Assembly (NCBI RefSeq): GCF_002209355.2
Contig: NZ_CP106855.1
Coordinates: 1,922,001-1,986,000, forward strand
Reading direction: 5' to 3'
DNA from: Bdellovibrio sp. SKB1291214
GTDB lineage: Bacteria > Bdellovibrionota > Bdellovibrionia > Bdellovibrionales > Bdellovibrionaceae
DNA length: 64,000 bases
The notes beneath the pieces were generated by a model, which was given only the letters and a program-made list of their open reading frames with translations, searched no databases and was not told the DNA's origin. The position numbers and the translations under genes are program-made. Numbering within the stretch: the first letter of the stretch is position 1; every line of letters begins with the position of its first letter. Positions 40,040 through 46,448 of the stretch are shown here, one piece after another.

Positions 40040-42535
40040 ATGAAATCCGTGTCTTTATTTAAAACCCTGGTCTCCCGTTTTGGTGTGGAGCTCTGCCTGC
40101 TTGTGCTGGTAGTGGTGGGTTATTCCATGTTCCAAGAACATCATTCTTTGCAAAAAGCATTGCTGCCTACAGAGTCAGTCAATTCGTTGCAGAATATGTC
40201 GGGGATACTGGCGGATGTGGACCGAGCCAAGAAAGAATATATCCAAGACAGCACGCCGGAAAAACTTCAGGTTTTCAATAATCAAGTTAACAAAATTAAT
40301 GATGAATTGACCAAGCTTTACAAATCCGTCAATGGCCGTCATGACTTGCAAATGCAAGTGTACCAACTGAATCAAAACCTGCATAAACAGTTCGAAACAG
40401 CAACGATGGAGATCAAGCAGAAGCACTCTGCGCGAAAGCCCTCCAATGTTGAAGACTTTAATCAAAAAAGCATCTTAGAGATGTTGCAGTCGCACCGCAA
40501 GGCACAGCAAGATTTCATCCAAGTCGGTGATTATAATTTCCTAAGAAGTGAACTGCTTTTCGCGATCATGGCGCTTTTTGGCGTGGTGATTTTATTAAGT
40601 CGTTATTGGCAGTACAATGACTTGCGAGAGCAACGCGAAATTGCCATGGGCTTACAAACTCGTTCGTTACTGTTAGATACTATCCTGGGCAGTATGAGCG
40701 AAGGTATGATCGTGGTGAACAACCGTGGCCACTTTATGCAATATAACGCCGCTGCGCAAAGAATCGTGGGCACCAAAGTGAAAGAGGTCGGTACCGAGAC
40801 GGGTGCGAAAGAACTTGGTTTCCATGATGAAAATCAAAAGCTCTATGCCGCTAAAGATCTTCCCTTCCATCGAGCTCTGTATGGCGTTGAAGTGGATGAT
40901 TTGGAAATCTTCGTTCAAAATGAGACTCATCCTGAAGGAATCTTTATTCTTTTAAGCAGTCGCTCCATCAAGGATATAGACGGTGGTATTTCTGGCGCGT
41001 TGGTTGTATTCCGCGATATCAGTCGACGTAAATTAGTTGAACTTGAGTGGGCCAAAGCCCGCGAAGCTGCTGTCGAAGCGTCCTTAAAGAAATCAGATTT
41101 CCTGGCAGCGATGAGCCACGAAATTCGCACTCCTATGAATGGTGTGATCGGAATGAGTACACTTTTAGCCGATACTAATTTGCAGCCTGAGCAGAAAGAA
41201 TACGTTGGCACCATCAAACGTTCAGCAGAATCGTTGCTCATGTTGATCAATGATATCTTGGATTATTCAAAAATTGAGGCAGGCAAAATTGAATTGGATC
41301 CTCAGCCTTTTGATCTAGGCTTCTTAGTTCGTGACGTTGTTGAGATGTTCCGTCCTGCTGTGAATGAAAAGAATGTTGAGTTAGAATTCAGCATGTCGCA
41401 GAAATCCAATCTGTACTTTAAAGGTGATCAGGGCCGCATTCGTCAGATTCTGGTGAATCTGATGGGAAATGCCGTGAAATTTACCAGCGCTGGTACAGTA
41501 GGTCTGGAAGTCTCCATACTGGATTCTGCCTCAGGACCTTCATTCTTGAAATTCCAAATTCGTGATACGGGGATGGGACTTCGTGAAGATGAACGTAAAG
41601 CATTATTCCAAAAATACTTCCAAGCCTCCGGTGGTAAAAAGTTCGGAGGAACTGGATTGGGTCTTTCGATCTGTAAGCAATTGGTCGACATGATGCAAGG
41701 ACAAATGGGTGTTGAAAGCACCTTTGGTATTGGTTCCACCTTCTGGTTTTCATTGCAGCTTCCGGTGTGCAGTGCTGAGGAGATCCCAAAATCGAATACT
41801 GAAAACAGTTTCACAGCTTTGTTCAGTGGACACGTGCTAGTCGCTGAAGATCAGGTCGTCAATCAGCGTGTGGCGCAAAGTTATTTGCAAAAAATGGGAT
41901 TGGACGTGGATATCGCTCCGAACGGTCGTATTGCTGTGGAAATGGCTCGCAGTGGAAAATACGATTTGATCTTTATGGACTGTCAGATGCCGGTGATGAA
42001 TGGCTTTGATGCAACGAAACGCATTCGAGAAGAAGAGCGAACCAGAAATTCCACACGTCGCACACCGATTGTGGCGCTGACCGCGGAAGGTACTATTGCT
42101 GATAAAGCTCCTTATATGGCCGCAGGCATGGACGATTATTTGTCTAAGCCCATTGAACTTCCCCGTTTAGTTGAAACTCTTCAGAAATATGTGAAAGTCG
42201 GGGAGGCGGCCGTGCTGGATTTAGCTGCTCTACAAAAGCTGGCGAAATACGCTTCGAAAGACAGCAATCTTGTTGCGGCCCTTGTGGAAGAGTTTGAAAA
42301 GTCCGCTCCCGATCTGATTGTGGCGATGAGAACACCAGATTTCAGTGAAGCAGCCCATGCTTTGAAGTCCACAGCTGCAACTCTTGGAGCAAAAAATTTG
42401 GCAGAACTTTGCCAAAAACTTGAAGACGAAGCAAATCCAGAGCACATTAACAAATGGGTTGTGCAGATCGAGAACGAATATGTTCGCAGTTTGCATGATC
42501 TAAAAAACTACATCAGCGAAAAAGGGGCTGCCTAA
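40040..42535 (+). CDS. Hybrid sensor histidine kinase with REC and Hpt domains
   Basis: 831 residues. Two membrane helices (~17-31 and 170-188) frame a periplasmic coiled-coil sensor region. A PAS domain (~205-325), HisKA with SHEIRTPMNG (His 360), HATPase (NLMGNAVKF, DTGMGL, GGTGLGLSI), REC with YDLIFMDCQMP (Asp 647) and KPIE, and a C-terminal Hpt with AHALKSTAATLGA (His 773). A BarA/ArcB-style four-step phosphorelay in one chain. The next gene, 12 bases on, is a response regulator likely to receive the signal. Confidence 0.93.
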   Translation: MKSVSLFKTLVSRFGVELCLLVLVVVGYSMFQEHHSLQKALLPTESVNSLQNMSGILADVDRAKKEYIQDSTPEKLQVFNNQVNKINDELTKLYKSVNGRHDLQMQVYQLNQNLHKQFETATMEIKQKHSARKPSNVEDFNQKSILEMLQSHRKAQQDFIQVGDYNFLRSELLFAIMALFGVVILLSRYWQYNDLREQREIAMGLQTRSLLLDTILGSMSEGMIVVNNRGHFMQYNAAAQRIVGTKVKEVGTETGAKELGFHDENQKLYAAKDLPFHRALYGVEVDDLEIFVQNETHPEGIFILLSSRSIKDIDGGISGALVVFRDISRRKLVELEWAKAREAAVEASLKKSDFLAAMSHEIRTPMNGVIGMSTLLADTNLQPEQKEYVGTIKRSAESLLMLINDILDYSKIEAGKIELDPQPFDLGFLVRDVVEMFRPAVNEKNVELEFSMSQKSNLYFKGDQGRIRQILVNLMGNAVKFTSAGTVGLEVSILDSASGPSFLKFQIRDTGMGLREDERKALFQKYFQASGGKKFGGTGLGLSICKQLVDMMQGQMGVESTFGIGSTFWFSLQLPVCSAEEIPKSNTENSFTALFSGHVLVAEDQVVNQRVAQSYLQKMGLDVDIAPNGRIAVEMARSGKYDLIFMDCQMPVMNGFDATKRIREEERTRNSTRRTPIVALTAEGTIADKAPYMAAGMDDYLSKPIELPRLVETLQKYVKVGEAAVLDLAALQKLAKYASKDSNLVAALVEEFEKSAPDLIVAMRTPDFSEAAHALKSTAATLGAKNLAELCQKLEDEANPEHINKWVVQIENEYVRSLHDLKNYISEKGAA

Positions 42536-42547
42536 GGAAAGGTATTT

Positions 42548-43240
42548 ATGGCCAATATACTTATCGTAGATGATCAAAAAAGTATTCTGATGACTCTTGA
42601 GGCGCTACTTAGCTCCGATGGACACGCCGTGGTTCAAGCAACCAATGCGATCGATGCGGTCCACCACCTGACTCAAGAAAAATTCGACCTTGTAATCACA
42701 GATGCTATCATGCCAGGCGGCAGTGATGGATACGCCCTGACTCGCACAATTCGAAAACAACCTCAATTGTTAAAACTTCCGGTGGTGTTGCTCACTGGAA
42801 AACGCGAAAAGAGTGATGTGGAAAAGGGCCTCGAAGCCGGCGTGAATGACTATATCATTAAACCGATTGATCCCGATATGCTTCTTGCTAAAGTCCGTAC
42901 AATTCTAACAACGAATGGTGAGCAAGGAGCGACGTTCATCGAAGCTCCCGTTGCCATCAAGGCAGATTGGGAAATTAAAACGGAAATCGTATCGGTTTCT
43001 GAAATGGGTTTTACTCTTCACTCATCGGTCGCTATGCCACTTGGGAAAATTTTAAGAATTAAAAGTTCCATATTTGATGATATTGGAATTGATCCGGTCG
43101 CTCTTCGTATCGATTCCTGCGAAGATTTAAATCCCATCGAAAACGCCTATAAGATTCACGGGCATTTCGTTGGTATCGCAGAAAAAGAGCTGACGCCACT
43201 GCGCTTGTATATCCGTCAAAAACAAAGCAAGGCTAGCTAG
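42548..43240 (+). CDS. Response regulator with C-terminal PilZ-like domain
   Basis: 230 residues. REC at 1-125: ILIVDDQ (Asp 8-9), LVITDAIMP (Asp 52), LLTGKRE and YIIKPID. The C-terminal ~100 residues (IKTEIVSVSEMGFTLHSSVAMPLG, KIHGHFVGI) show the rhythm of a PilZ-like beta barrel, but without a clear RxxxR motif, so c-di-GMP binding is doubtful. Directly downstream of the hybrid kinase with 12 bases between. Confidence 0.82.
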   Translation: MANILIVDDQKSILMTLEALLSSDGHAVVQATNAIDAVHHLTQEKFDLVITDAIMPGGSDGYALTRTIRKQPQLLKLPVVLLTGKREKSDVEKGLEAGVNDYIIKPIDPDMLLAKVRTILTTNGEQGATFIEAPVAIKADWEIKTEIVSVSEMGFTLHSSVAMPLGKILRIKSSIFDDIGIDPVALRIDSCEDLNPIENAYKIHGHFVGIAEKELTPLRLYIRQKQSKAS

Positions 43241-43272: not shown

Positions 43273-43306
43273 GGGGCTATCGACCTCATATGTTGTCGAT
43301 AGCCCC
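43273..43306. terminator. Bidirectional terminator
   Basis: GGGGCTATCGAC (43273-43284) and its perfect complement (43295-43306), 10-base loop, followed by T-rich sequence on the plus strand. It separates convergent genes. Confidence 0.75.
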
Positions 43307-43339: not shown

Positions 43340-44788
43340 TTACTGGCAGAATGGAAGCGACTTAACCATTGATTTGATGGAAGTCAGCTTGTTGTATTTG
43401 CCACCCGGTTTAAGAACTGACCAGTACACGCCTGATTTGATCGCGATCGTGTTGTAGTTCTTGATCTGCTTAGCCATGATACCCACACCGCAGTGAAGAT
43501 TGATGTAAGGATCCAAAATAGTTTTCTTTGAACTTGTTGAGCTTAGAGATTTATCTTTTGCCCAATCAAATTTACACCATTTGTTCCACTGAGTGTCTTG
43601 GTAAGACAACTGCAACAAGCCTTCGGAGTATACTGGCTTTTTAGTTACGTTGTCCGTACCCATTGTTGTTTCATGCATGCGAGAAAGCGGGTTGTAAGCA
43701 CTTTCGTATCGAGCCATCGCCACAAACAATTGCGCCCAGACGTTCGCTTTTTGGTTTGTGTTCAAGCTTGAATACTTAGGACAGAATTGACCCATATCAC
43801 TTGCACCTTTAAGAAGGCTGCTCCACTCGCCAGTGATCAAAGTTTGTAGGTACTTAGACCATGCTTTTCTCTCTGGATGAGCCGTTGTATCCCAAGAAAG
43901 TGGCGCCATCACATAGGAGCCATCACCTGGAGTTGGAGACGGTGAAGGAACTGGAGATGGTTCTGGTGATGGAGTCGGAGTCGGCGTTGGTTGCGTCGGC
44001 TCAGTCGGCTTTGGGAGACCCGTGCCACCTTTATCAAGTACCGCATAAATCAAAGATCCACCTTTAAGGGCATTGATCACTTGAGTACGGATGCTCATGT
44101 CAACAGCAGGACAACCCCATGAACGACCTTGAATCACAGACTTTTCTTGAACATATGAAGCACCATGAATCACGATAGCGCGAGCACGAGCGTTCGAGTT
44201 TGTTGAAGAAAGACCATCTAGGCGCAAAGACAAACCGTGGCTGCCGGAATATGTTTCAGCAGTGCGGTAGTATCCTAGCGAAGATTTGTTCGAACCTGAA
44301 GTGTTCGAAAAAGATGTCGCGTAGCCGTCGTGGTTCGGGTCTGAGTTTTTACCGTGAGCCACGTGGATAGGCCAAACGTCACCGGAATTCATATCGATGA
44401 TATAAAAACGTGGCGTTTTCGAGCTTTGAGAGAAGTTGATAACTGAAATGTAGTTTTGGTTTTTGAACGATGATTTATTTTGTTCAAAATAGATCAAAGC
44501 CTTAACCAAGGATTCAGTCGGTACAATCTTCTTAGGGTCCAGATAGTTATACTTCAACAAGATGGTTTCACGATCATAATCAGAGATCGTTACCACATCA
44601 GATGCCATAGTTCTTAGCATGGGTTCTGCTGGTGTTTGTACAGTCTCCTCGAAACCTGGATCATCGGGAAGAGCTGGTTCAGTTTGGGCTTGAGCGTTTG
44701 CTGCAATACCCAGGGTTAATAAAGTGGCTGCGAAAAAAAGCGTGGCTCTAGAACGTACAGAAGAATTAGTTTGCTGCTTAACAAGCAT
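43340..44788 (-). CDS. Exported fusion of an L,D-transpeptidase and a lysozyme-like domain
   Basis: 482 residues. Signal peptide (~13-34, ending ANAQA). Residues ~60-255 are a YkuD-type L,D-transpeptidase: FYIIDMNSGDVW, IVIHGASYVQ (His 208) and GRSWGCPAVD (Cys 226). A Pro/Thr/Ser linker of about 30 residues (~258-290) leads to a C-terminal domain with FVAMARYESAYNP (Glu 362) and EGLLQLSYQD, which resembles transglycosylase/lysozyme folds. So one protein could both link and cut peptidoglycan. Predators of this type are known to use L,D-transpeptidases on prey walls; that this enzyme does so is inference. The GGAGGAAAC ribosome site precedes the ATG. Confidence 0.82.
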   Translation of the reverse strand: MLVKQQTNSSVRSRATLFFAATLLTLGIAANAQAQTEPALPDDPGFEETVQTPAEPMLRTMASDVVTISDYDRETILLKYNYLDPKKIVPTESLVKALIYFEQNKSSFKNQNYISVINFSQSSKTPRFYIIDMNSGDVWPIHVAHGKNSDPNHDGYATSFSNTSGSNKSSLGYYRTAETYSGSHGLSLRLDGLSSTNSNARARAIVIHGASYVQEKSVIQGRSWGCPAVDMSIRTQVINALKGGSLIYAVLDKGGTGLPKPTEPTQPTPTPTPSPEPSPVPSPSPTPGDGSYVMAPLSWDTTAHPERKAWSKYLQTLITGEWSSLLKGASDMGQFCPKYSSLNTNQKANVWAQLFVAMARYESAYNPLSRMHETTMGTDNVTKKPVYSEGLLQLSYQDTQWNKWCKFDWAKDKSLSSTSSKKTILDPYINLHCGVGIMAKQIKNYNTIAIKSGVYWSVLKPGGKYNKLTSIKSMVKSLPFCQ

Positions 44789-45002: not shown

Positions 45003-45836
45003 ATGAAGAATTTATTATTGCTATCGATTTTATTTATTTGCGGATGTGGGGCAGGCAATCCTGTTTTAGATGCGATGGTAGGAGGCATGTCCGTCACCAA
45101 GGTGGAAAGCTACTTCAACCTGGACGAGAAGCAGGAAAAGGAATTCGAAAAGAACGTCGAACATGATTTGAAACGCCTTAAGCAAGAACAGCTGCAGGAA
45201 TTTTCCAAGTCACTCAGACAATTTGACGAGCGTATTCCCAAAGAAAAATCTGACTCAATCATTTTGTCAGAGGCTTTTGATTTGTTGGAGAAGGAATACA
45301 CTCGTTCGTCAGGATATTTTAAAAATGCAGCCGTTAAGCTGACAAACACTTTACGTGATGAACAGTTTGACTACTTTGAGAATCGTGTAAAAAAAGAAAT
45401 CGCAGAATCCCGGGCGCAATCAGTTCAATCTAAAAACTCAGAGCTTAAGGAAAGATATCGCAAACAAATTCTTTTTTGGGTCGGTAAGATGGATGTCCAT
45501 CAGGAACAAGCTTTAGATCAGTTCATAAGAAAGGGGCAGTTCCCATGGAAAGAACGATTGGATAATCGTGAAAGCATTTTGAATTCCTTCATGGCTAAGC
45601 GCAGAGACTCGGCAAAGCTTCGTGCGATGGCTGCACAATTTATGACGGATTATGACTCCTTAAGAACGCCTGAGTATGCCCAAGCTATTCAAAATTACGA
45701 GACAAAATTTAAAGGCTTTCTAAATAAGTTTTGGAGCTCGTTAAGTTCCGAACAAAAGCAGCAAATGCAGATCAGTCTTAATAAACAAGCACTTGAAATA
45801 GATCGATTTGCTGCGATTTCCGTGACTGATAAATAG
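45003..45836 (+). CDS. DUF6279-like lipoprotein
   Basis: 277 residues. The lipobox is near FICGCGAG (Cys 15). The mature part is almost all helix and rich in Lys, Glu and Gln (YFNLDEKQEKEFEKN, LRDEQFDYFENRVKKEIAES, RKQILFWVGKMD, WKERLDNRESILNSFM). The arrangement fits the DUF6279 envelope lipoprotein family. Function unknown. The gene follows a 210-base gap with no clear promoter. Confidence 0.75.
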   Translation: MKNLLLLSILFICGCGAGNPVLDAMVGGMSVTKVESYFNLDEKQEKEFEKNVEHDLKRLKQEQLQEFSKSLRQFDERIPKEKSDSIILSEAFDLLEKEYTRSSGYFKNAAVKLTNTLRDEQFDYFENRVKKEIAESRAQSVQSKNSELKERYRKQILFWVGKMDVHQEQALDQFIRKGQFPWKERLDNRESILNSFMAKRRDSAKLRAMAAQFMTDYDSLRTPEYAQAIQNYETKFKGFLNKFWSSLSSEQKQQMQISLNKQALEIDRFAAISVTDK

Positions 45837-45902
45837 ACCTAGTTCCAGGGCCAGGGTTGCATGTGTTCCTGTGATCTTTACAATGAAGATCGGAGGAAAT
45901 TA

Positions 45903-46448
45903 ATGAAACTACTTTTACTGGCAGCCCTGGTTGCTTTGACAGCTTGTTCGACGACACCGACGGCGCCGACTCCCTCTAAGACTCCGCCTATGGCTACGGA
46001 AATTGGAACCGAAAGTTCCCGCATTGATTACGTTGCCGTTCAACGTGCATTGAATCTTGAGCGTCCTGTTGAAACACTGGGTGTGGATGAAAAGAATTTC
46101 AACTCTTGTGAAATGGGTTATGGATATTCTCCCAACCAAGATTGCCGTACAATTTACATGACCGTGGTGAACGTGCGGTTGTTGTGTCGTGATTCCGAAG
46201 GAACAATTTCAACTGTTCTTACGGAAGCAGACGTGACGCCGATTGCTTCGCAAAATATTCGGTGGACACTTAAAAATGTTCAAGGGCAGTTCAGAACAGA
46301 TGGTTTAGGATACGGCCAAATCGTGGCTGTGTCGCCTAGGTCCCAAAAAAGGGAACGCCTGAAGCTGGCCTTGGGTAACGAGTTTTTGTATATGCGGGCA
46401 AACGAAATAACGAAGGTCATCACCCCTCGTCCATGGTGTTCCATGTGA
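45903..46448 (+). CDS. Lipoprotein, unknown
   Basis: 181 residues from ATG at 45903, with GGAGGAAA upstream (a longer frame exists but lacks the signal). Lipobox LTAC, then Thr/Pro-rich spacer, then a compact domain with five Cys including SCEMGYGYSPNQDCRTIY and PWCSM at the end. No family recognised. Separated from the previous lipoprotein by 66 bases. Confidence 0.72.
   Translation: MKLLLLAALVALTACSTTPTAPTPSKTPPMATEIGTESSRIDYVAVQRALNLERPVETLGVDEKNFNSCEMGYGYSPNQDCRTIYMTVVNVRLLCRDSEGTISTVLTEADVTPIASQNIRWTLKNVQGQFRTDGLGYGQIVAVSPRSQKRERLKLALGNEFLYMRANEITKVITPRPWCSM

Follow-up and report, generated by a model that had tools for sequence, protein, structure and literature searches.

In Bdellovibrio sp. 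SKB1291214, one gene joins a YkuD_2 domain, which has the L,D-transpeptidase (LDT) fold, to a Dsl-type, deacetylation-specific lysozyme domain within a single protein of 482 residues. A first-pass annotation, made from the sequence alone, had proposed such a fusion, and our analysis upholds it: the open reading frame carries a signal peptide, the YkuD_2 domain, a Pro-rich linker and a domain of lysozyme fold. Chance does not explain it: the protein matches DslA by phmmer (E=8e-17), its modelled halves reach Z scores of about 16 against DslA and about 12 against LDTs, 16 fused proteins were found, and dN/dS is 0.05-0.08 in the domains versus 0.2-0.3 in the linker. The fusion puts two known families into a new arrangement and is not a new kind of enzyme; it is real, conserved and functional-looking. 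We think it probable that it serves as an exported two-domain peptidoglycan enzyme with which an intraperiplasmic predator remodels the prey wall.

The fused gene and its setting

The gene occupies positions 43340-44788 on the minus strand of the window (the whole stretch of 64,000 nucleotides that was analysed) and is complete from ATG to stop. All of its parts are given here on that strand. An N-terminal signal peptide (residues 1-35; 44684-44788) ends at an AQA^Q-type site, placed by eye, and has no lipobox Cys in the sequence or the alignment. The YkuD_2 catalytic domain (residues 90-249; 44042-44521) matches PF13645 with 174.4 bits and E=1.8e-51 (Pfam cut-off 27). A Pro/Thr-rich linker (residues 253-291; 43916-44032) leads to the Dsl-type lysozyme domain (residues 292-482; 43343-43915), within which PF01464 (SLT) matches residues 345-447 with 25.9 bits and E=7.8e-6 (Pfam cut-off 21.3).

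The fused gene converges on a response regulator gene (42548-43240), itself 3' of a hybrid histidine kinase gene (40040-42535), and has a divergently oriented DUF6279 gene (45003-45836) on its other side. The C-terminal 110 or so residues of the regulator matched no Pfam family. An inverted repeat (43273-43306) with perfect 12-bp arms and a loop of 10 bases lies between the two converging genes and is possibly a two-way terminator; scans for promoter and terminator patterns gave matches no better than shuffles.

Comparing the window gene with its two closest fused relatives by Nei-Gojobori counts, we obtained dN/dS of 0.045-0.061 for the LDT domain, 0.061-0.078 for the lysozyme domain and 0.21-0.33 for the linker, values that are rough at a dS of about 1.0-1.7. 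Purifying selection acts strongly on both domains, and both halves are maintained. Export signals vary more. By eye, the alignment shows a lipobox-like LxxC or VxC in 13 of the 16 fused proteins, while the window protein and those of G015 and G017 have no lipobox and look like ordinary signal-peptidase-I substrates. Delivery may therefore differ between the window protein with its two closest relatives and the other 13. The lipobox of DslA has been argued to tether the enzyme to the predator (PMC7511926, partial text), so by analogy this small clade may release its enzyme rather than tether it.

Two halves and their catalytic sites

By sequence, the sole strong PDB relatives of the protein are entries for DslA (Bd0314): 6ta9 and 6tab, which share one sequence (phmmer E=8.2e-17), 6taf (8.5e-17) and 6tad (2.2e-16). 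The modelled C-terminal domain has the DslA variant of the lysozyme-superfamily fold, aligning with DslA chains 6tad, 6ta9 and 6taf at Z 15.7-16.0 across 158-159 residues. The full-length model is of moderate confidence (pLDDT 71.6, from 23 sequences), and its loop at residues 366-374, which holds Glu373, falls below pLDDT 50. This structure prediction, combined with a check of the active site, bore out the lysozyme fold and the catalytic Glu362 put forward in the first-pass annotation, and a second acid, Glu373, can now be added to them. Glu362 (codon 43703-43705) lies in the ES motif and aligns with E143, the general acid of DslA. Glu373 (codon 43670-43672), 11 residues on, matches E154, the second catalytic Glu of DslA, with the same spacing; the HMMER alignment gaps the E154 loop, so this equivalence is drawn from equal spacing and conservation. 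Tyr455-Trp456 (codons 43421-43426) align with the Y228-W229 specificity motif of DslA, S388 corresponds to DslA S166, and C336, C405, C433 and C481, predicted disulfide cysteines, align with C117, C182, C199 and C253. Both Glu residues, the Tyr-Trp pair, the Ser and the four Cys are invariant in all 16 fused proteins.

These positions are informative in the light of work on the family. DslA, DslB and DslC cleave GlcNAc-deacetylated but not acetylated wall; DslA requires both E143 and E154 for activity, its Y228 is absolutely conserved among homologues having E154, and its disulfides are C117:C253 and C182:C199 (PMC7511926, partial text). By sequence and modelled structure, the lysozyme half is a member of the deacetylation-specific DslA/B/C family and not a generic lysozyme, and from this membership deacetylated GlcNAc wall would be its substrate. 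The presence of both Dsl Glu residues together with the YW motif rules out a generic lysozyme or lytic transglycosylase, as the Pfam name SLT would have it. GH23 lytic transglycosylases have a single catalytic Glu and no second acid, whereas E373 is present here and invariant.

DslB (Bd1413) and DslC (Bd1440) of B. bacteriovorus HD100 share 64-66% identity with the window lysozyme domain, along with the Glu pair, the YW motif and the Cys set. They are, however, single-domain and lipoprotein-like, whereas the window domain sits behind a YkuD_2 domain in a protein without a lipobox. The exit lysozyme DslA (PDB 6TA9) has the fold and active-site residues in common with the window domain at about 32-34% identity in structural alignment, but it has no LDT domain and is a lipoprotein upregulated at exit.

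The YkuD_2 half gave a better model on its own (185 residues, pLDDT 85.1, pTM 0.85), for which Foldseek returned LdtMt1, Pgp2, Bd1075 and YkuD with E down to 4.7e-5. Within the full-length model this part has the LDT fold, with a Z of about 11-12 whether it is compared with LDTs or with LD-carboxypeptidases (top 12.1). His208 (codon 44165-44167) and Cys226 (codon 44111-44113, in a GRSWGCPA motif) are invariant in 16/16 fused proteins. The dyad named in the first-pass annotation is therefore present in an LDT fold, but its description as a crosslinking site goes further than this evidence. Cross-linking by this half would be assigned by name, with hydrolysis as a live rival, because the PF13645 domain has no PDB chain clearly related to it by sequence (best E=0.38), because deletion of the Legionella YkuD_2 (PF13645) gene lpg1697 left muropeptides unchanged (PMC10117105, partial text), and because Ala, not Arg, stands two residues after the catalytic Cys. 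We found no PF13645 protein with tested activity in the papers searched.

The residue at Cys+2 deserves attention. Most 3-3 cross-linking YkuD enzymes have an SHGC-x-R motif, and the window reads SWGCPA instead; in the set compiled here, 55 of 56 YkuD_2 domains have Ala at this position and one has Val. In the PF03734 enzymes of the same genomes, searched on both strands, the position is Arg, Ala or Val, several of the 25 loci having no pattern match. The 1-3 cross-linking LdtGo2 type was also considered for the YkuD_2 domain and set aside: in a keyword look-up, two papers on that type name YkuD (PF03734) or YkuD-like (cd16913) and never PF13645 or YkuD_2.

These observations bear on a possible, though not the likeliest, alternative in which the YkuD_2 domain acts not as a cross-linker but as an LD-carboxypeptidase or LD-endopeptidase, so that the protein trims stems, cuts glycans and only dismantles the marked prey wall, mainly for exit. 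The near-universal Ala at Cys+2 is as in LD-carboxypeptidases, structures of Pgp2 and Bd1075 are among the top Foldseek matches, and the unchanged muropeptides of the lpg1697 mutant agree with it. Yet the fold scores do not separate LDTs from LD-carboxypeptidases, the PF13645 genes of HD100 are annotated as LDTs, and a single residue is weak evidence, LdtMt2 being a genuine LDT with another residue at Cys+2. The LD-carboxypeptidases Bd1075, Csd6 and Pgp2 share the LDT fold with the window protein, and Csd6 and Pgp2 also the Ala at Cys+2, but their second domain is NTF2-like where that of the window protein is a Dsl-type lysozyme. For the L,D-transpeptidases Bd0886 and Bd1176, LDT activity on the prey wall is reported; they most likely belong to PF03734 (judged by map position only), whereas the window domain is PF13645, and the reports, seen as partial text, show no lysozyme domain in them.

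Enzymes of LDT fold can also attach proteins to peptidoglycan (PMC12729407, a review, partial text), and the lysozyme comes without a binding domain of its own. It is conceivable, but in our judgement very unlikely, that the YkuD_2 half is mainly a wall-binding or self-attaching module holding the lysozyme on peptidoglycan, with little catalysis of its own. Against this, His208 and Cys226 are invariant in every fused protein at a dN/dS of about 0.05, and an unfused, LDT-only relative in G022 keeps the catalytic residues.

Distribution and exchange at one locus

The first-pass annotation had suggested looking for the fusion in other predators. A family-level search of 66 genomes, 24 of them of the window genus, found it in 16 of these 24 (G000, which is the window genome, G005, G007, G008, G011, G012, G014-G021, G023 and G025), with a lysozyme of DslB/C type in 15 and of DslA type in G025. 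The other eight, some of them drafts, gave no fusion (G003, G004, G006, G009, G010, G013, G022 and G024). In G004 there was also no close DslB/C-type lysozyme, the top match to the window domain having 35% identity. Outside the genus, no match among those listed spanned the full protein in 143 class genomes or 368 phylum genomes. A search of named-record contigs with an alignment as query gave 20 loci, four of them fused and all four Bdellovibrio MAG loci; the same search with the single protein as query gave no match.

In the genus labelled g17, an LDT gene is followed by a Dsl gene on the same strand after a gap of about 70-80 bases (G049, G052 and G055). Frames of 511-513 residues in G049 and G055 were examined as fused LDT-Dsl genes and rejected, as they translate as two adjoining genes with stop codons between. 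A long frame of 423 residues in G119 was likewise dropped, only an LDT of 249 residues being found there. Elsewhere in G049 (L174:1524-3223), two Dsl-type lysozyme genes stand in tandem with an overlap of a few bases. We found no description of an LDT-lysozyme fusion in a predator in the open-licence full-text papers searched.

The genomic setting is largely shared. For 14 of the 16 fused genes, a response regulator/kinase pair (in G018 the regulator alone, at a contig end) lies within one to four genes, although the genes converge; it is absent near the fused gene of G021, and in G019 the contig ends. Flanking families were joined by BLAST links, with identity to the window genes checked for G011, G018, G025 and the unfused G022. 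On the far side, the DUF6279 gene and a 195-residue gene without a Pfam match (together 45003-46448 in the window) accompany the locus in G015, G017, G018, G022 and G025.

Within this setting, the lysozyme module changes. Between G025 and the window, the regulator is 69% and the kinase 53% identical, and the genes of the opposite flank 39% and 58%. In the LDT tree the domain of G025 pairs as sister with the one of G014 (support 96/89), a protein whose lysozyme module is of DslB/C type. In the lysozyme trees the G025 module falls with HD100 DslA and with a DslA paralogue from G025 itself. At the same locus in G022 (L049:9636-10421), an LDT with intact catalytic residues is followed by a stop and the neighbouring gene, with no lysozyme. 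Thus, at one locus, a DslA-type copy has taken the place of the usual lysozyme half in G025, and G022 lacks that half. The signal region of the G022 protein has a single Cys (LGLC), perhaps what is left of a lipobox. The LDT tree is weakly supported as to a single clade of fused LDTs, and the 15 fused lysozyme domains of DslB/C type form two groups in the larger lysozyme tree, a grouping that the smaller tree leaves unresolved.

No fusion was found in HD100, whose nearest LDT stands as a gene of its own, and the fusion is therefore not needed for predation. The HD100 regulator/kinase pair has no LDT adjoining it. The separate LDT gene, by position probably Bd1402, is found some 8 kb from DslB and has neighbours in common with the window locus on the side away from the regulator. 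Bd1402 and Bd0782 form an HD100 gene cluster annotated as L,D-transpeptidase (PMC11656739, partial text); they are PF13645 like the window domain but have no fused lysozyme. In G006 the orthologue of this unfused LDT is split into two overlapping frames and looks broken (L054:13823-14622).

A proposed role on the prey wall

The first-pass annotation offered prey-wall remodelling as one use for the protein. This fits, and the deacetylation-specific Dsl lineage sharpens it; for wall resealing, the other use that it named, we found no direct evidence. We propose that the C-terminal domain would hydrolyse the glycan strand at deacetylated GlcNAc, a mark put on the prey wall and not on the predator's own, as an inverting lysozyme in which E362 would act as the acid and E373 as the base and Y455 would block an acetylated sugar. 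The Cys226/His208 domain would attack the tetrapeptide stem at meso-DAP in the same wall, most likely passing it to another stem or to a D-amino acid (L,D-transpeptidation or exchange). The lysozyme half, being specific for prey, would hold the stem-editing half on the prey wall, so that strands would be cut and re-tied locally. What we infer in this scheme is that the protein reaches the prey, that the reaction is transfer and not hydrolysis, and its timing. The window genome has six loci with a polysaccharide deacetylase domain, a broad family, and these could include makers of the lysozyme's substrate.

The protein might instead be a housekeeping enzyme that acts in septation or curvature on the predator's own wall, which we consider improbable. 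An ordinary signal peptide would bring the window protein into the predator's own periplasm first, and Bd1075, an LDT-fold enzyme of Bdellovibrio, acts on the predator wall (PMC8938487). However, the lysozyme half is of Dsl type, the tested Dsl members spare acetylated wall (PMC7511926, partial text), and the deacetylation mark of the prey is described as missing from the wall of the predator itself.

Remodelling of the prey wall also sits well with what is reported of LD-cross-links. Predator LDTs are reported to reinforce the prey wall (PMC10482364, partial text), and lytic transglycosylases, but not lysozymes, are inhibited by LD-cross-links (PMC11390936, partial text). LD-cross-linking and a hydrolytic lysozyme are therefore compatible on the same wall. 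In HD100, PF03734 has 14 matches and PF13645 five, 19 in all, which is the number of LDTs implied for that strain (PMC12546842, partial text). A bolder and distinctly tentative reading makes the fused protein a self-contained wall editor: LD-cross-links added by one half would stop lytic transglycosylases from breaking the occupied prey wall, the unhindered lysozyme of the other half would cut only at the predator's deacetylation mark, and the lysozyme would work as a cartridge that can be exchanged at one locus, being of DslB/C type, swapped for DslA type or missing. If true, this would be the first substrate setting to be defined for the PF13645 family.

The fusion also touches published gene counts. 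KM01, ZAP7 and SKB1291214 are each said to have just a single gene of the Bd1413/Bd1440 cluster, which was read as loss of a duplicate (PMC11656739, partial text); the main text of that paper uses neither "fusion" nor "fused". In the window genome and in G017, the sole close DslB/C-type match is the fused gene, and in G015 the fusion is the only lysozyme-spanning match among the matches listed. As the fused gene is the only close match of this type in the first two, the remaining DslB/C copy counted in strains said to have lost the duplicate is, from these sequences, probably the LDT-lysozyme fusion. The published inference is qualified accordingly, in that the remaining copy appears to be fused.

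Two activities so far studied as separate predator enzymes, the editing of stems by LDT-fold enzymes and the deacetylation-specific cutting of glycans, are here joined in one polypeptide. Coupling of wall cutting to wall editing in predators thereby becomes testable, and the genomes of cultured strains with the fusion offer a natural contrast to those that keep the parts separate. The fused protein also provides a route to the function of PF13645.
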